Shown: positions 7,387 through 28,851 of the stretch, piece after piece
Layout: each line of letters starts with the position of its first letter
Numbering within the stretch: the first letter of the stretch is position 1
Origin: a virus
Length of the DNA: 46,545 nucleotides
IMG/VR virus record: IMGVR_UViG_3300020192_000020
Coordinates: 1-46,545 of that record
Direction: 5' to 3' (one strand)
Notes under the pieces: generated by a model
What the model was told of the DNA's origin: nothing
Seen by the model: the letters and a program-made list of their open reading frames with translations, nothing else
Databases searched by the model: none
Program-made: the position numbers and the translations under genes

Positions 7387-7763
7387 TGCGAGGATTCAAG
7401 CTAGATATCGAGGCACACGATCTAGCGCTTGACGGGGCGGGGCGTCTGCTGTTCGTCGACGACGACGCCGCCACGGTCCAAGAGATCAAGACCCGGCTGC
7501 TCTTTTTCAAGGGCGAGTCATTCAACGATGCACGCGCTGGAGTGCCCTATTTTCAGGAGATCCTGAAGAAGGGTACGGCGCCCGGGCGTGTCAAGGCGTT
7601 GCTGCGCAAGGCCATCATGAGTCATCCCCAGGTGATCGACGTATCGAGCCTCACTCTGGACGTAGATCGCATCACCCGGGTAGCCTCCGTGGCGTTCGTG
7701 GCGCGCACACTGACCGGCCGTATCCTGCGGTCCGAGGAGTTCGGCCCGTTGGTGCTATCCTGA
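7386..7763 (+). CDS. Baseplate wedge protein, gp25-like (DUF2634-type)
   Basis: A 125-residue protein; start ATG 7386 overlaps the spike stop. The pattern of an early FKLD strand, AATVQEIKTRLLFFKGE, then GVPYFQEILKKG and a final beta hairpin (DRITRVASVAFVA) is that of gp25-like wedge proteins, which link sheath to baseplate arms. A longer in-frame extension (back to 6999) exists only inside the spike gene and was discarded. Order (spike, gp25-like, gpJ-like) is canonical. Confidence 0.75.
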   Translation: MRGFKLDIEAHDLALDGAGRLLFVDDDAATVQEIKTRLLFFKGESFNDARAGVPYFQEILKKGTAPGRVKALLRKAIMSHPQVIDVSSLTLDVDRITRVASVAFVARTLTGRILRSEEFGPLVLS

Positions 7764-7766
7764 CCG

Positions 7767-8936
7767 GTGACCGCACTCACCTCCACTGGTCTCGAGATCC
7801 GCACACAGGGACAGATCCAGGCAGATCTGGAGACGGCGGAGCGCGCTGAGGTCTCGGCCGATCTCGATCTGTCGACGTCCAGCCCCCTAGGGCAGATCAA
7901 CCGGATCTTCGCCAGGGCCCTCAGGCTGGGCGAGGAGGGGCTAGCTGCGCTCTACGCAGCAATAGACCCCGACTCCGCGTCCGGTGACGCCCTGCTCCGC
8001 CTCAGTGCCTTGACGGGCACCTACCGCGAGGCCGCGAGCAAGACCCGCGTGCTGGGTACCATCGACCTAGATGCGGGGGTGTATGCGATCGGCGCGATCG
8101 TGGTGGCCCCTGATGGTCGCCCCGAAGATCGCCTGTCCAATATCGAACAGATCACCACGGCGGGCGGCAAAGAGCCCATGCTTTTCGACGCGGAGATCGC
8201 CGGCGCGTTGGACGTCACCGCGAACACGCTAACGATTGCTAGTCCGTTAGCCGGCGTCAACTATGTAGATTCGAATCAAGACGGCGTCACGGGATCTCCG
8301 ATCGAGACCGAGGCTGCACTACGTCTTCGCCGCCGCTCAGAGGTGGAGTCCCCGGGATCGAGTTCCGCGGCCGGCATCGTGGCAGACCTGACCCGAGAGA
8401 TCGCAGCCATCATATCCGCGAGCGTGACCGAGAATGACACGGATGGAGTCGTCGACTCTGTGCCCGCGCACTCGATTGAAGCCATCGTGTATGGGCCGCT
8501 GAGTCCGACAGCGGCTGAGAACGAGGAAGTCGCGTTGCAGATCCTCGCGAGCAAGGCGGCGGGAATCGGGACCTATGGCAACACTTCGGTCACCGTGGTG
8601 GACCCCGAGGGGCAGAGCAAGCTCGTACGATTCACCCGTCCGACGCTCGTGCCTGCTACGATCACCCTGTCTATCTTGGTTAATTCCACCACGTATGCGG
8701 GGGACACTGCGCTGGCCGAGCACCTCGCCGATCGCGCTCTCGAGGAGTGGATTCCTGGCCTGGACGTATCGTGGTCTCAGGTGCTCGGATGGGCGCACGA
8801 GGTCCAGGGCGTGCTGCGAGCCACCACGATCAACGTGGGCGGGGGCGCGTTCGTCAACGTGGCGATCTCGACTCGACAGATCGCCACCCTAGAGAGCACC
8901 GATATCACCGTCACCAGCGCCGGAGCTACGCCGTGA
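7767..8936 (+). CDS. Baseplate wedge protein J-like
   Basis: A 389-residue protein starting at GTG 7767, with the Baseplate_J pattern: an N-terminal helix (GLEIRTQGQIQADLETAERA), a central beta region with NYVDSNQDGVTGSPIETE followed by 'RLRRRSEVESPGSSSAAGI', and a C-terminal alpha/beta part (LAEHLADRALEEWIPGLDVSW). The 'ETEAALRLRRRSE' region is the most diagnostic. J proteins form the wedge ring around the hub. Its stop overlaps the next start as GTGA. Confidence 0.85.
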   Translation: MTALTSTGLEIRTQGQIQADLETAERAEVSADLDLSTSSPLGQINRIFARALRLGEEGLAALYAAIDPDSASGDALLRLSALTGTYREAASKTRVLGTIDLDAGVYAIGAIVVAPDGRPEDRLSNIEQITTAGGKEPMLFDAEIAGALDVTANTLTIASPLAGVNYVDSNQDGVTGSPIETEAALRLRRRSEVESPGSSSAAGIVADLTREIAAIISASVTENDTDGVVDSVPAHSIEAIVYGPLSPTAAENEEVALQILASKAAGIGTYGNTSVTVVDPEGQSKLVRFTRPTLVPATITLSILVNSTTYAGDTALAEHLADRALEEWIPGLDVSWSQVLGWAHEVQGVLRATTINVGGGAFVNVAISTRQIATLESTDITVTSAGATP

Positions 8937-17807: not shown

Positions 17808-19802
17808 TCACCTTTCGACTTGTGACGGCTCTATGCCGAGCAGCCAAGACTTGTAGACTGGATCGCGGTCAAGCGCAAGGACTTTCGGATCTTGAACGAA
17901 ATTTCTGTCTTCCCAGGGGATCAGCAGACCGTCACGATACACGGGCTCCGCGCCCTTGCGCCAGTGTCTTTGCAGCGCGGGCTCGGCCTTGGCTGGACAC
18001 CCAGGGCACCACTTCGCGCCTACGGCGTCCATGATCCCCACTACGATGCCGGGGATGCTCGTCTCGTGCTCGGGGTACTCGACCAGGATCTCGTCATGCG
18101 CCTGATTCCAGGATCGCATCGGCGTTCCAGTCCACTGCTTTTCCAGGATCTGCCATCCCGCGTCCATCAACATGTCACCGACTCTGCCTTGAAAGTACGA
18201 GTTGGCGGCGCTGGTGTATCGCAGGTTCCCGCGGAACCGATCGCTCATAAAGTGCTTGAGCGGCTCGCCGCTCTGGATCAGCCGATTGACATGATCAAAA
18301 TACCGGCGCATCTCGGGGAAGGCCGATAGCCACGCTTCTTTGCCCTCGGCGGCTTGCGCCGCGGTAAGGCGGATCCCGTATTGCTTGGCCGCCAGCTGGC
18401 GAAATTTGTCGAGACCTAGCCCGCCGGGCAGCGCGTACATATAGGCCTTCGCACTCTGCCTTGCGTTCTTGATCTGCTTTTTTTCGTCGGTTGTGCGGTC
18501 CGGCGACGAAGCCCACGGGTACTGCCAACCTCGCAGATAACAGGCGAACCAAAGCAGCGTGTCAACACCCTCGTTCAGCAGCCGAGCTAGTTGCGAATCG
18601 AAGCCCATATCTAGGCACGCCTGTGCAAGCCCATGCAGCTCCGCGGACCTCCAATCACACGACAGAATCAAGTGACCCGGTCGCGCCACGTAGCACTCCC
18701 GGAGTCCGGGCTCGCGCGGTAGATTCTGGGTCTGGTCACCCAGTCTCGAGTAGGCCTTGCCCGGCTTGATGCGGCCTCCGCCGGATGCGCTCGTGCGCCC
18801 AGTAGCTACGAGCGGATCGAAGCGCGGCTGTATCGGGAGACCCAGATGCGCGGCTAGTTCCAGCCGGCGCACGCGGCCTCGGACCGTCGAGATCGACCCG
18901 AAGCGTGCGTAAGCGATCAACATGGGATCGAGCGTGGCTAGGCAGGAGTCGGCATCGAGGGCAACATGCTCCTTTTTGGTGCGCGGTATCGGCAGGCCCA
19001 GGTGCCCAGAGACAGCTACCATCCGGCTCTTCGCTGCCGTCGTGTCCTTGGATCCTGTCGGGCGGACCAGCGGTGTGCACGACACGATCGGCGCCTCTAG
19101 GTCTCGCGACTCGGCGTAGGCGCGCACGCGCTCAGAGTCTGCGTAAATTAACATCTCACGCATCTGCTCGAATTCTTCCTCGACCATCTCGCCGAGCACG
19201 CGCACGGCGCCGGCGTCGACGCGCATCCCCCACGCTGAGGTGGCTTCGAGCCAGAGCGCACCGCGAGCGCGCCGAAACTGGTCTTCGAGAAAGCGCGCGT
19301 ACTCCTCCTGAGCACGAAAGACCTGTGCCACGGATAGATCTGCCAGCGCGTAGTCGATCGACTCCTGCGGCCAGTCGGATACTGGCACTCCGTCTAGCGC
19401 GCCGTAGCCCGTGCGCACGGTCGAGTCCTTGACACCCTCCGCGTAGGGATCGGCGATGCCGTACCTCTCCAGGACGGCCTGTAGCCCGTCCTGACAGGGC
19501 TCGCCGAGCGCGATCCGTATCAGACGCTCCCGGAGGAAGGTACAGGCCACACGGTCAGCCCGGTAGGCCGCCAGCCATAGCGGAGCCATGCTCGGACGGG
19601 TGGCGATCGAGCACAGCACGTCGTACGCCGTGTTGTGCCCGTACAGCAACACACTGGGATCGCGCAGAGCGCGCTCTATCCGATCGAGGCCGGCATCACG
19701 CAGCTCAATCCCGCCCTCGACCGACTGCACACACACGATCCGTGGGGCCTGCCGCCCTGGCCGGATCGGCAATGTCTCGGTGTCGAAGGCGAATTCGATC
19801 AT
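17808..19802 (-). CDS. Family A DNA polymerase with 3'-5' exonuclease domain
   Basis: A 664-residue replicative polymerase. Residues 1-170 are a DnaQ/DEDD exonuclease (IEFAFDTETLPI, LYGHNTAYD, SIDYALADLSVAQ). The polymerase domain has motif A ILSCDWRSAELHGLAQ (usual DYSQIELR altered), motif B RQSAKAYMYALPGG (R-x3-K kept, the usual F762 position is Tyr, the usual Y766 is Gly) and motif C QAHDEILVE. Start ATG 19802 overlaps the previous stop (ATGA); an upstream TTG at 19823 was rejected. A Tyr at 762 is common in virulent phages. Confidence 0.9.
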   Translation of the reverse strand: MIEFAFDTETLPIRPGRQAPRIVCVQSVEGGIELRDAGLDRIERALRDPSVLLYGHNTAYDVLCSIATRPSMAPLWLAAYRADRVACTFLRERLIRIALGEPCQDGLQAVLERYGIADPYAEGVKDSTVRTGYGALDGVPVSDWPQESIDYALADLSVAQVFRAQEEYARFLEDQFRRARGALWLEATSAWGMRVDAGAVRVLGEMVEEEFEQMREMLIYADSERVRAYAESRDLEAPIVSCTPLVRPTGSKDTTAAKSRMVAVSGHLGLPIPRTKKEHVALDADSCLATLDPMLIAYARFGSISTVRGRVRRLELAAHLGLPIQPRFDPLVATGRTSASGGGRIKPGKAYSRLGDQTQNLPREPGLRECYVARPGHLILSCDWRSAELHGLAQACLDMGFDSQLARLLNEGVDTLLWFACYLRGWQYPWASSPDRTTDEKKQIKNARQSAKAYMYALPGGLGLDKFRQLAAKQYGIRLTAAQAAEGKEAWLSAFPEMRRYFDHVNRLIQSGEPLKHFMSDRFRGNLRYTSAANSYFQGRVGDMLMDAGWQILEKQWTGTPMRSWNQAHDEILVEYPEHETSIPGIVVGIMDAVGAKWCPGCPAKAEPALQRHWRKGAEPVYRDGLLIPWEDRNFVQDPKVLALDRDPVYKSWLLGIEPSQVER

Positions 19803-20071
19803 GCGCGACCCTGTCGACGCCAAGAGTCAAATTCAGCCCACCACTCGGGGAGTGTCGGGCGCTCCGGACCTAGGTCAGAGCGATCCCACCACGCGCCGAA
19901 CGCGTCCAGATCGCGACGGAAGCGCTCGAGGGCATCGTCGAGCGTGACGCTCGGCGTGGGTCGCCCCTTGTCCGCAGGGAGGCAGGCAGTGCCCGAGCCT
20001 GCCCAGTAGTCGCGAGTGCCACACACTGTGCACTCAGACCAGCGAGGTAGTACATTCCAAATATGGGCCAT
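19799..20071 (-). CDS. Small Trp-rich protein with CxxC motif
   Basis: A 90-residue protein starting MAHIWNVLPRWSECTVCGTR: one CxxC pair, another Cys near residue 30, and many Trp (FGAWWDRSD, PEWWAEFDSW). Two CxxC pairs would be needed for a normal zinc ribbon, so it may bind metal only as a dimer. Its start codon lies two bases after a tRNA-like RNA fold that pairs the GGGGG ribosome site, so its translation may be controlled. It is coupled to the polymerase by ATGA. Confidence 0.6.
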   Translation of the reverse strand: MAHIWNVLPRWSECTVCGTRDYWAGSGTACLPADKGRPTPSVTLDDALERFRRDLDAFGAWWDRSDLGPERPTLPEWWAEFDSWRRQGRA

Positions 20072-20073
20072 AG

Positions 20074-20123
20074 TCCCCCGGACGGTATCGAGCCGTCGAG
20101 CCAGCGCCTATCGCTGCGGGGGA
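20074..20123 (-). ncRNA. Three-armed tRNA-like fold before polymerase operon segment
   Basis: Read leftward, the 58-base gap between a stop (20130) and a start (20071) holds a compact fold: TCCCCCG (20123-20117) pairs perfectly with CGGGGGA (20080-20074), 7 base pairs; inside are a hairpin CAGCG-ATAGG-CGCTG, a 4-base GCTC linker, and a T-arm-like hairpin GACGG-CTCGATA-CCGTC. Order and sizes mimic a tRNA lacking the D-arm. The 3' strand of the acceptor stem contains the GGGGG that would serve as ribosome site for ATG 20071. Pairing is seen directly; function is inferred. Confidence 0.65.
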
Positions 20124-20129
20124 TGCGTG

Positions 20130-20699
20130 TCAAGCGATCGCGCGGGTCTCGCCAGCCGCGTTGTACTGCCGCTTGCCGTGTCGACGGTCGGACGCCGCGA
20201 AGTCGAACCACCCAGCATCCGCGTCAACAGGAGGCGCCGCAGGAGGAGGCGTCACAGGAGGCGCTGCCGTGCGCGCCGCGTCGAAATGCGCCTCGACGTA
20301 GTGACCCGTCTGCGGTGCGGCCTTGGGCTTGCCCTGGCTGCACACGACGCGCAGGGGGGCCCCTGCGTGAGGGTTCTGGGCCGAGACAGCAGCGGTCAGC
20401 TCCGCCTTGCCAAGCGCGCGCGCCGCGTCGCCCTCAGGCTCGAGCCCGAGGGCCAGTGCGACGATGCGCTTCATGTGCACCACACCCTTCTGTTTGCCCC
20501 AGCCGTCCACCTCAAGACTCGTGGCCCAGCTCGCGGGCCCCCGCGGCGTATCGAAGGTCACGATGAGATTCGTGCGCCCGCTCTTCGACGACGACTGTCG
20601 TCGCATGTCCCGGATAGTGACGGTGTAGTCCCCGATCGGGAGATCGGGCAGACGGAGCGTGGTGTCGAGCTGGCCTGCATTATCAAATACGTCGGTCAT
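20130..20699 (-). CDS. Probable ssDNA-binding protein (DUF669-like)
   Basis: A 189-residue protein with an OB-like beta-rich N-terminal domain (LPIGDYTVTIRDMRRQSSSK, RTNLIVTFDTPRG, KRIVALALGLEP) and a Pro/Ala-rich flexible tail from about residue 140 ending in a few aromatic and basic residues. The pattern resembles DUF669-type phage proteins that act as single-strand DNA binding proteins next to the helicase and polymerase. The usual acidic tip is not obvious. Ribosome site AAGGA lies about 12 bases upstream. Confidence 0.55.
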   Translation of the reverse strand: MTDVFDNAGQLDTTLRLPDLPIGDYTVTIRDMRRQSSSKSGRTNLIVTFDTPRGPASWATSLEVDGWGKQKGVVHMKRIVALALGLEPEGDAARALGKAELTAAVSAQNPHAGAPLRVVCSQGKPKAAPQTGHYVEAHFDAARTAAPPVTPPPAAPPVDADAGWFDFAASDRRHGKRQYNAAGETRAIA

Positions 20700-20746: not shown

Positions 20747-22456
20747 TCAGTATGTCTCGTCAGGGACACGTGTCAAGGTTTTCTTTGCGAATCGGGGTTG
20801 CTTGGGCAGCATTCCAGGCTCGGTGACGCCCGAAAGATCTGCTTGACAGAGCTTTTGCGCCTGCCCCGTGACCTCCTGCGCACGAGATGACCGGGAGTAG
20901 GCGCGCCAAAACGCTTCGCAGTCTTCGATGCACCCGAAAAGCAGATCGGCGTCGATGCGCTCCGCGCGCTGTCCGGGTCGGTGCGTGCGTCCTAGTAGCT
21001 GCTCCAGATCTTGCCCACTCGACGGGATATCGATCAGCAGGTTGCGGCGCCAGGCTTGGAGGTTCTTGCCGCTGTCGTTGACCTTGCGCGCGAGCACGCA
21101 AGACACGCCGGGATCGTGCTCTTCAGCCCGTAGCCCCGTCACCTGGTCCACGCCCCCCAGCCCGTAGTAGGCCAGCCCTCGCGCGGCCAGTGCCAGACCG
21201 ACAGCAGGTCTGTCGGTCCATATCAGTCCCGGCGCCTGGCGCGACCATGCAACGATCCAATCCAGGCACACGGAGCTGATCCAGTGAGGCACAGGATTCG
21301 GTTTGAACGTGGGCTTGACCGCGCGCCATGTGGCCAAGGCCGCCGCCGCCGCAGGGTAGTGCTCGGGGAGCGCGTCGAGGTGCTGACACAGCTGCTCTTC
21401 GGTATCCAGATCCCGGCGATTCGAGGACAGGATATCACGGCACAAGCTCGCCCAGATCGATCGCGCATCGCGCCAGTCCGCGGGAGCGCGAGGCACCCAC
21501 ACGGAATAAAATCCGGTCGCGATCTCGCGCGCGTGCCGCCATACCTCCATCTGATCTGCGCACGGCATGCCGTCGGGCGTGTCCCCCGTCTCACGCAGCA
21601 CAGCGAATGCGTCCCTGATCGCCGGGTCTACGGGCGCCAGGTGACTCGTGATCCTGATGGGGATCGGGAGCGGAGGGTCTTGCGAGAGCACGAATCCGGG
21701 CGACTCGTAGAGGCGCCTCATTACACCACGCACGGGATCGTCAACGTCGAATCTCTCGAGGGCCCCGAAGCCCATCCTCTTTTGGTCGGGCGTGTCGACG
21801 TCTAGCGCGCGTGACCACTCGTCCAGATCGAGGTAGCTGTGAGGCACGGGAGATTTCGCCCCGAGAGCGCGCCACGACTGATGCTCGAAGTCGGCGAGGG
21901 AGTTGCCATAGGGGGTCCCTGTCATCCAGACCACGATGCAGTCCGGGTGAGCTTCGAGATACCGCATGATCCTCTTGGTGACTCCGGCGCTCTTGTTTTT
22001 CGCGTAGTGTGCCTCATCGCACACGATGAGATCGGGCGCATACCGCTCTAGCAGGCCCGCGGCCGCGACGCGAGATAGCGTTTGGTACGACACTGTCTTC
22101 AGGAACGTCGGCAGCACCCAGTGCTCGCGGTACTCGCGAGACTCTCGCTCCGTCTTCTCGACGAGGTGAGCGGGCACCAACAGCAAGGGCCGCTTGACGT
22201 GGCGAAACATCCTAGGTGCAAGCAGCGAGAGCAGCGTCTTGCCGTGACCTATCGGTAGGCCCGTGTAGAGACCTCCGTGGAGGCCCATCTCGGCCAGCGC
22301 GATCGCCTGTAGTGGTCGCAGCGTCTGAGTGCCTCCGGGGGCACGGTGCGCGTCGGACATGCGCGCCACTAGGTCCGCCGTAGCCTCCGGAGTCCACACC
22401 CTACGAGGCAGAGCGTGGATCCTCCGAAGCTCGGCTGAGTCTTGTACGCCGATCAC
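20747..22456 (-). CDS. SNF2-type DNA helicase/ATPase
   Basis: A 569-residue superfamily 2 ATPase. Motifs in order: GLPIGHGKTLLSLL (Walker A, about residue 68), LLVPAHLVEK (Ia), LIVCDEAHYAKN (Walker B DEAH), WMTGTPYGNS (III), and C-terminal SGQDLEQLLGRTHRPGQRAE (V-VI). The HRPGQ form of motif VI is typical of SNF2 proteins. In phage operons it works with the primase-helicase and nuclease in replication or recombination. The GTG 22456 start lies inside the stop of a 30-residue membrane peptide. Confidence 0.88.
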   Translation of the reverse strand: MIGVQDSAELRRIHALPRRVWTPEATADLVARMSDAHRAPGGTQTLRPLQAIALAEMGLHGGLYTGLPIGHGKTLLSLLAPRMFRHVKRPLLLVPAHLVEKTERESREYREHWVLPTFLKTVSYQTLSRVAAAGLLERYAPDLIVCDEAHYAKNKSAGVTKRIMRYLEAHPDCIVVWMTGTPYGNSLADFEHQSWRALGAKSPVPHSYLDLDEWSRALDVDTPDQKRMGFGALERFDVDDPVRGVMRRLYESPGFVLSQDPPLPIPIRITSHLAPVDPAIRDAFAVLRETGDTPDGMPCADQMEVWRHAREIATGFYSVWVPRAPADWRDARSIWASLCRDILSSNRRDLDTEEQLCQHLDALPEHYPAAAAALATWRAVKPTFKPNPVPHWISSVCLDWIVAWSRQAPGLIWTDRPAVGLALAARGLAYYGLGGVDQVTGLRAEEHDPGVSCVLARKVNDSGKNLQAWRRNLLIDIPSSGQDLEQLLGRTHRPGQRAERIDADLLFGCIEDCEAFWRAYSRSSRAQEVTGQAQKLCQADLSGVTEPGMLPKQPRFAKKTLTRVPDETY

Positions 22457-27079: not shown

Positions 27080-27167
27080 ATGTTCCTTGTCGACCCGAAG
27101 GGTCCCTCGCCGCGCCAAGCCATGCCATGCCCAGCCATGCCAGGCCGTGCCGCGCCGAGCCGGGCCA

Positions 27168-27208
27168 TGCGACGCCGAGGAATCGAACCTCAGTGAACCG
27201 TCCGTCGC
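27168..27208 (-). ncRNA. tRNA acceptor/T-arm minihelix C
   Basis: Identical in sequence to unit B over the 40 paired and bulged bases (27208 to 27169), followed by A and then 12 pentamers. It is the unit nearest to the downstream gene at 27079. Confidence 0.65.
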
Positions 27209-27278
27209 TGTTGACCCGAAGGGTCCCTCGCCTTGCCATGCCGCGCCAAGCCCTGCCTTGCCGAGCCCCGCCTCGCCA

Positions 27279-27319
27279 TGCGACGCCGAGGAATCGAACC
27301 TCAGTGAACCGTCCGTCGC
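27279..27319 (-). ncRNA. tRNA acceptor/T-arm minihelix B
   Basis: Same fold as unit A: GCGACG at 27319-27314 pairs with CGTCGC at 27285-27280, and the T-stem is CTGAGG/CCTCGG, where a C-G pair of unit A has become a U-G pair. The bulge is 9 bases. The change keeps pairing, which favours RNA structure. Confidence 0.65.
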
Positions 27320-27389
27320 TGTTGACCCGAAGGGTCCCTTGCCTTGCCACGCCAGGTCACGCCCGGCCTTGCCCCGCCCCGCCTTGCCA

Positions 27390-27431
27390 TGCGACGCCGA
27401 GGAATCGAACCTCGGAGAAACCATTCGTCGC
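27390..27431 (-). ncRNA. tRNA acceptor/T-arm minihelix A
   Basis: Read leftward: GCGACG (27431-27426) pairs with CGTCGC (27396-27391), and CCGAGG pairs with CCTCGG around the seven-base loop TTCGATT, the canonical T-loop. The two helices total 12 base pairs and stack without a gap on the 3' side, as acceptor plus T-stem do in tRNA. A 10-base bulge replaces the D and anticodon arms. A discriminator-like A follows (27390), but no CCA. Confidence 0.65.
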
Positions 27432-27438
27432 TGTGAAC

Positions 27439-27972
27439 CTAGCTCTTCCGATGCTCCGCGTGCTCCTCGGCCTTCTGCTTAGCATACGCCGCAGAGTCCG
27501 CACGCAACTTCTCAGAGGCGACGCGCTTATCGGCCACGTGCCGAGCCTGGGCACGCACCGCGGCGATCTGCACCTCCGCGATCGCGAGCCGGGTAGCCTC
27601 GGCCGAGGTCGCAGGATCGAAGTACGAGATCCTGCGAGATGCGCCCTTCACAGCACGCTGGATCTCGAGCCCCATATCACGCATCGCAACCCCTATGTGC
27701 TTGTCGTGGGGCACCAGCTCGTACGTGCCTTGACGCGAAGCGCGCAAGTCGACCCGGTGCGTCCCGCCCAACTCCTCCTTGATCAACGTGACGTACTTCA
27801 CGAAGCGCAGCTCCGCCTTGGAGTGCTCTCGCGACGTCAACGCCACCTCGCTGCACTTAGCAGTGAGCCCGCAGAGTTCGCGGAGATGGTCGGTCTTCCA
27901 CTCCACGATGCCTGCCTCCATGCCGGCCACGATCCGCAGGTAGCACTCGCGCCAAGGCTCCATCCCCCTCAC
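27439..27972 (-). CDS. Hypothetical protein of replication operon
   Basis: A 177-residue, mostly helical, charged protein starting MRGMEPWRECYLRIVAGMEA and ending in a Lys/Glu-rich tail (YAKQKAEEHAEHRKS). No catalytic motif is recognised. ATG 27972 overlaps the upstream stop (ATGA). Its 3' end lies 8 bases before the tandem RNA-like array, so the array is in its transcript. Confidence 0.65.
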   Translation of the reverse strand: MRGMEPWRECYLRIVAGMEAGIVEWKTDHLRELCGLTAKCSEVALTSREHSKAELRFVKYVTLIKEELGGTHRVDLRASRQGTYELVPHDKHIGVAMRDMGLEIQRAVKGASRRISYFDPATSAEATRLAIAEVQIAAVRAQARHVADKRVASEKLRADSAAYAKQKAEEHAEHRKS

Positions 27973-28653: not shown

Positions 28654-28689
28654 TGTCTTGGTTGTCTTGGTTGTCTTGGTTGTCTTGGT
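28654..28689. repeat. Four tandem 9-base iterons
   Basis: Four exact head-to-tail copies of TGTCTTGGT. A near-identical variant (TGTCTAGGT) and inverted copies lie downstream (see origin entry). A period of nine gives less than one helical turn per unit, so neighbouring sites face different sides of the helix. Confidence 0.85.
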
Positions 28690-28851
28690 CTGTTTTGACC
28701 AACCTAGTCAGAGGGAACCCCCCGGATTCCTTGGGGATTCTGAGAAATGTCTAGGTTGTCTAGGTTGTTTGTAGGAGTTGTGGAGGTGAGAAAATGATAA
28801 TAGATGAGAATAGGTATTAAGTAGGAATTTAGAATTCCAGGGGGGGGGTAG

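Follow-up and report, generated by a model that had tools for sequence, protein, structure and literature searches.

An anticodon-less tRNA-shaped fold between an SSB-like gene and the CxxC-polA genes of a phage, a probable transcript boundary

We analyzed a 46,545-nt stretch of viral DNA (IMG/VR record IMGVR_UViG_3300020192_000020; hereafter the window) and found that the gap between an SSB-like gene and a gene for a small CxxC protein encodes a predicted tRNA-shaped fold without an anticodon arm. The fold is rare by its T-loop-like sequence, tRNAs or tRNA-like folds recur in the homologous gap of related phages, and the ribosome-binding site of the CxxC gene is predicted to be occluded by it. 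With about even confidence, we read the gap as a tRNA-shaped boundary between transcripts and a probable RNase P site, which would also throttle the CxxC start in the window phage.

Results

A three-armed fold fills the gap upstream of the CxxC gene

The fold takes up 50 of the 58 bases between the SSB-like stop codon and the CxxC start codon on the minus strand (Table 1), and all 17 of its 17 pairs are Watson-Crick. RNAfold returned for the 50 nt exactly the structure described in the first-pass annotation, with a 7-bp acceptor-like stem, a 5-bp arm, a 4-nt linker and a T-like hairpin with the loop CTCGATA, at −25.1 kcal/mol (z −1.9; 7 of 200 shuffles were equally stable), whereas z was just −0.55 when the fold was placed in a 71-nt context. 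Its stability is within the top 1.6% of the 50-nt windows of the phage. By sequence and predicted structure, the acceptor and T stems form a 12-bp stack as in the upper half of a tRNA. The same annotation was also correct in locating GGGGG within the acceptor 3′ strand and ATG 20071 two nucleotides past the fold, which is followed by CTATGG.

Table 1. Coordinates of the fold, its neighboring genes and the mini-tRNA-like array in the window
Feature	Position	Strand	Sequence or description	Basis
Acceptor-like stem, 5′ strand	20117..20123	−	TCCCCCG	Sequence and RNAfold
D-like arm	20102..20116	−	CAGCG-ATAGG-CGCTG; 5 bp, 5-nt loop ending in GG	
Linker	20098..20101	−	GCTC; 4 nt, in place of the anticodon arm and variable loop of a tRNA	
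T-like arm	20081..20097	−	GACGG-CTCGATA-CCGTC; 5 bp, 7-nt loop, C instead of U54	
Acceptor-like stem, 3′ strand	20074..20080	−	CGGGGGA; holds GGGGG 20079-20075 (CxxC ribosome-binding site)	
SSB-like gene	20130..20699	−	189 aa; TGA 20132-20130 ends 6 nt before the fold	ORF
CxxC protein gene	19799..20071	−	90 aa; start ATG 20071	ORF
Family-A DNA polymerase gene (polA)	17808..19802	−	Start ATG 19802	PHROG 17, E 5.9e-25
Helicase gene	20747-22456		Nearby gene	
TTGACA	20128..20133	−	−35-like; overlaps the SSB-like stop codon; no good −10 partner	
Mini-tRNA-like array	27089-27451 (units 27169..27431)	−	Three units, 27391-27431, 27280-27319 and 27169-27208, between GGCNN repeats	

The CxxC stop codon overlaps the polA start codon (ATGA), and genes for a DnaQ-like exonuclease, a PD-(D/E)XK nuclease and a prim-pol lie nearby. 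The 189-aa SSB-like protein is a remote homologue of the SSB-like family encoded between the helicase and polA genes of relatives (E 1.5e-5 by profile comparison in a search of one), of which the member in the related locus L155 resembles Pfam DUF669 below the cut-off only. No relatives of the CxxC protein were found; a weak match in locus L001 was read as spurious from the genes there. Scanning viral contigs with each of the polA, CxxC, SSB-like and helicase proteins singly yielded no usable relative.

The 7-bp acceptor stem abuts a 5-bp T stem with a 7-nt loop as in tRNA, but merely GCTC stands between the D-like and T-like arms instead of an anticodon arm with a 7-nt loop, and the T loop reads CUCGAUA, not UUCRA. 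Because position 54 of this loop is C, the U54-A58 pair is missing; to our knowledge, tRNAs do not use C at the first T-loop position. ARAGORN found neither tRNA genes nor a tmRNA, and Rfam gave nothing at the gathering score and, around the fold, no match to tRNA up to E 10. As a putative RNase P substrate, the element offers an acceptor/T stack of about 12 bp with a T-like loop, but has CTATGG instead of a 3′ RCCA, which strengthens cleavage without being absolutely needed. With a D loop of just 5 nt and a D stem that lacks a preceding 2-nt linker, the element may fail to adopt a tRNA-like elbow. The reading as a processing mark is genuinely weakened by the C at loop position 54, the absent CCA and the short D loop.

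The shape is ordinary, but its combination with a T-loop-like sequence is rare

The shape of the fold by itself is ordinary, several being expected per window: the topology of a 7-bp stem, a second hairpin and a 5-bp arm with any 7-nt loop matched 9 times in the window (5.8 expected), and 3.8-9 matches are expected per window when the second hairpin is dropped. When the loop had to be T-loop-like, [TC]TC[AG]A, beneath a 7-bp stem, the fold was the only match in the window, with 0.01-0.02 expected, under a definition that was set after the fold was seen and that permits C at the first loop position, a letter absent there from the listed array elements. A looser T-loop definition with the 7-bp stem raises the expectation to 0.07 per window. 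With a 6-bp stem and the T-loop-like sequence, the only matches were this fold and the three units of the array (0.09 expected). An element of this kind arose in 1 of 100,000 shuffles of the 58-nt gap. Six 7-bp matches were obtained from both strands of 856 kb of other phage and bacterial DNA, namely five array mini-tRNAs and one tRNA-Leu. The 684 kb around polA relatives contained two matches, one antisense and one sense, the latter in the L155 gap that follows the SSB-like gene.

tRNAs and tRNA-like folds recur in the homologous gap of relatives

A four-sequence polA alignment led to 80 viral loci, many of which conserve the order helicase, SSB-like gene and polA; the SSB-like profile was present in 51. 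The first three polA relatives (L003, L088 and L089) had seemed to speak against conservation of the gap element, a view that changed with the closer loci from this alignment. A prophage search in genome contigs returned polA matches of 21-33% only.

L155 is among the nearest relatives of the window phage (41% for the helicase and 33% for polA). Its gap contains AGGCCGG / CGCGTCGGGCGCCTCGG / TCGGG-TTCGACT-CCCGG / CCGGCCT, an anticodon-less acceptor/D/T element that differs in sequence from that of the window, with the middle CGC GTCGG GCG CCTCGG, and starts at the same position, +7 after the SSB-like stop codon. In isolation, the element takes as its minimum-energy fold a three-way junction whose D-like arm has 5 bp and a 5-nt loop ending in GG, like the AUAGG of the window. 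In a 97-nt context, RNAfold preferred another pairing of the 5′ part and kept only the T arm. Shuffling of this gap produced such an element once in 100,000 trials.

We scored sense-strand tRNAs or tRNA-like folds at the SSB-like stop codon or up to 350 nt from it, a group to which the window belongs with its element at +7. Nine of 38 non-redundant loci (13.3 kb) carried one, a count that mixes ordinary tRNAs (L134/L135, L137 and L149) with tRNA-like folds and includes L134/L135, which are related to each other; the other 29 had no tRNA-like element in the gap. About 400 kb outside the SSB-like gap contained 8 same-strand and 1 antisense tRNAs or tRNA-like folds, and since this background consists largely of coding DNA, the difference from other intergenic gaps is smaller than the ratio implies. 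Reverse-strand controls contained no tRNA or tRNA-like fold. The gap encodes tRNA-Gln in L137-L139, tRNA-Tyr in L134/L135 and tRNA-Met in L149, an odd tRNA call in L147, a cloverleaf-like fold called tRNA-Pro in L133, whose middle arm has 9 bp and a 4-nt loop, and a fold with a degenerate middle arm in L132. As the elements of the window, L155, L132 and L133 are unable to decode, the shape appears to be what is kept. Seven of 38 loci (L148, L165, L180, L131, L143, L151 and L178) had terminator-like hairpins in the same 150 nt, versus 1 of 38 upstream. With tRNAs, tRNA-like folds and terminator-like hairpins there, the gap resembles a boundary between transcripts in this family of operons. The tRNA-likeness noticed in the first-pass annotation is thus borne out by relatives, including the anticodon-less element at +7 in L155.

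Related structures were seen at other positions. Just upstream of the SSB-like gene of L003 (MW202816.1, around 7713-7826), the T arm TTTGG-TTCGATT-CCAAA accompanies an acceptor of 7 bp (TGAACTC/GAGTTCA), and the middle arm is long. Between the helicase gene and the following gene of L172 (2358-2500), two tRNA-like folds with 7-bp acceptors and TTCGAGT T loops lie adjacent to each other without a normal anticodon arm.

Occlusion of the CxxC ribosome-binding site is predicted in the window phage but not conserved

The fold covers the CxxC ribosome-binding site in the window phage, and the start is predicted to be inaccessible in free mRNA: the calculated cost of opening the site is 14.0 kcal/mol, the second highest among 35 genes, for a Shine-Dalgarno (SD) duplex of −8.6. 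When a terminating ribosome was modelled as covering the bases to 20121, the predicted cost decreased from 14.0 to 9.0 kcal/mol for the site and from 10.4 to 4.6 for GGGGG. In L155, however, the polA ATG follows the element at a distance of about 30 nt, so that burial of the ribosome-binding site cannot be the shared function. The burial proposed at first therefore holds as a prediction for the window phage but is not conserved, and we favor occlusion as a local addition to a tRNA-shaped processing mark.

The fold is not a demonstrable member of the mini-tRNA-like array family

The window contains an array of mini-tRNA-like units about 7 kb from the fold, around which there are no repeats. Such arrays are not private to the window phage and are present in Mycobacterium phage LittleE, Gordonia phage MakoManhole and many IMG/VR phages. 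Their elements, 40-48 nt in length, comprise an acceptor stem, a short middle that usually includes GG, in many cases as ATGG, and a T arm carrying TTCGANT, often followed by ACGC. They alternate with GGYNN pentamers next to the PHROG 4652/5926 genes of numerous unrelated phages. Rfam gave no match for the array of the window. We built a covariance model (R1) from 13 array elements with their sequences unaltered; the covariation count of this alignment is partly circular, since its rows were picked for pairing. R1 finds about 60 elements in some 20 phages; across 23 complete records, its matches above 23 bits fell within arrays only. It is weak on variants with a D hairpin, scoring 14.6 bits on the T arm only in L055/L077 and mostly 17-20 bits in L004.

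We had expected such a model to include the fold, but R1 had no match to E 10 on the minus strand at 20074-20123. Four tRNA-like folds had been counted in one operon: the three array units are indeed tRNA-like elements of a widespread phage family, but the fold at 20074 is not recognized by R1, whose high-scoring matches are confined to arrays, so that the four are alike in shape and not demonstrably one family. Array elements share with the fold an acceptor, a short GG-containing middle (a small D hairpin in some) and a T arm; their TTC[AG]A loops, usually ATGG-like middle, ACGC-like tail and arrayed arrangement are all absent from the fold. The array elements with a D hairpin are its closest architectural match outside polA operons. 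A clear small D hairpin is seen in elements of L055 (446-491), L057 (279-325), L077 (2919-2964) and the L004 units, as in TGATAAG GCC AGATGG GGC GTA CCGGG TTCGAAT CCCGG CTTATCA.

Further arrays were noted in L004 (2230-3030), L005 (2984-3142), L006 (2750-4390), L026, L034, L039, L041, L046, L051, L059 and L082. Felixounavirus GGTNN repeats surround the PHROG 4652 homologue of Escherichia phage allfine (L007; 1650-1910 and 3100-3300), with a divergent stretch containing TTCGATT. In the window, the leader of the PHROG 4652 operon has a 9-nt tandem repeat at 28654-28689 (ACCAAGACA, minus strand) with related copies at 28748-28765. The mini-tRNA-like arrays beside PHROG 4652/5926 merit a study of their own.

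Alternative explanations of the gap

The fold might instead be a hairpin for translational coupling, in which ribosomes translating the SSB-like gene would melt part of the 5′ acceptor strand and thereby free the CxxC start, with the resemblance to tRNA being incidental. The high predicted cost of opening a strong SD, its decrease with a ribosome at the stop codon and the ATGA link from CxxC to polA all agree with this. As in intergenic hairpins that hide a ribosome-binding site, the SD lies in the acceptor 3′ strand and the upstream stop codon 6 nt before the stem; unlike them, the window has a tRNA-like three-way junction, and the burial is not conserved. Coupling leaves unexplained the T-loop-like sequence and its rarity as well as why relatives encode tRNAs and tRNA-like folds in this gap, and the distance of the start codon from the fold in L155 also speaks against it, so we consider it rather unlikely as the main explanation. 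Still less probable is a decayed phage tRNA gene, stripped of its anticodon arm and now functionless. Real tRNAs do occur in the same gap of L134/L135, L137 and L149, but decay would bring mismatches into a fold whose pairs are all intact, and the L155 element is anticodon-less as well.

Chance pairing in a G+C-rich gap could draw on the commonness of the topology, the low z value in the 71-nt context and the off-consensus T loop, yet it would have to account for the single recovery among 100,000 gap shuffles and for the same architecture at the same +7 offset in L155, and we regard it as very improbable. We give the least credence to the possibility that the gap is a CxxC-polA promoter, from which an RNA begun inside the fold would lack the acceptor 5′ strand and expose the ribosome-binding site. 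The hexamer TTGACA at 20133-20128 is exact, and the CTTGACAC motif occurs twice, at 20128-20133 ahead of CxxC and at 20771-20776 ahead of the SSB-like gene, where it has a plausible and better −10, CATACT. At the CxxC site, however, an acceptable −10 is absent, the site is missing from the list of promoter-like sites, the TGA stop codon forms part of the hexamer, and the fold is left unexplained.

Discussion

We favor the tRNA-shaped processing mark because the elements in the gap include non-decoding ones, such hairpins are known to be cleaved by RNase P, and mitochondria provide a precedent for tRNA punctuation. The element would stand where the SSB-like mRNA gives way to the CxxC-polA mRNA, a position at which relatives encode tRNAs, tRNA-like folds or intrinsic terminators. 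We infer its expression, its cleavage by RNase P or RNase Z and any translational effect as follows. Most likely by the mechanism of tRNA punctuation, host RNase P would recognize the acceptor/T stack and cut before T20123, 6 nt after the SSB-like stop codon, and RNase Z might cut after the acceptor; the cuts would separate the upstream and downstream messages and give them defined ends. As the acceptor 3′ strand holds the CxxC ribosome-binding site, the intact fold would hold down the CxxC start, and polA through the ATGA overlap, until a ribosome ending at TGA 20130 or a cut on the 3′ side relieved this repression.

The element has partial counterparts in known systems. The tRNA-like domain of tmRNA has an acceptor and a T arm without a normal anticodon arm, which the window element resembles, although it has neither a tag reading frame nor pseudoknots. 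Gene 32 of phage T4 is the SSB gene of that phage, and the window element follows an SSB-like gene. Bacterial RNase P cuts hairpins consisting of acceptor, T stem and T loop, phage M3 RNA, P1/P7 C4 RNA and mRNAs including that of T4 gene 32 (PMC11143913). These model and non-tRNA substrates are like the window element in their 12 bp of acceptor and T stem, 7-nt loop and origin in phage mRNA (PMC11143913); unlike them, the window element lacks CCA, lies between two genes of a replication operon and is a putative substrate. Mitochondria use tRNAs as punctuation, with tRNA shapes at the gene boundaries of polycistronic RNAs as in the window (PMC8601606; PMC4394434); the window differs in being phage DNA with one such boundary and no anticodon arm. 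We found no description of such elements in the open-access literature, a scope that leaves out most subscription journals.

More tentatively, anticodon-less tRNA-shaped elements of phages, single at boundaries as in the window and L155 and arrayed with GGYNN repeats by PHROG 4652/5926, may recruit host factors that process or bind tRNA to mRNA rather than serve decoding. Should mRNA boundaries in the replication operons of phages prove to be marked by the tRNA shape, this would represent a bacterial counterpart to the tRNA punctuation of mitochondria and provide a reason besides codon supply for the tRNA genes that some phages keep in odd places.
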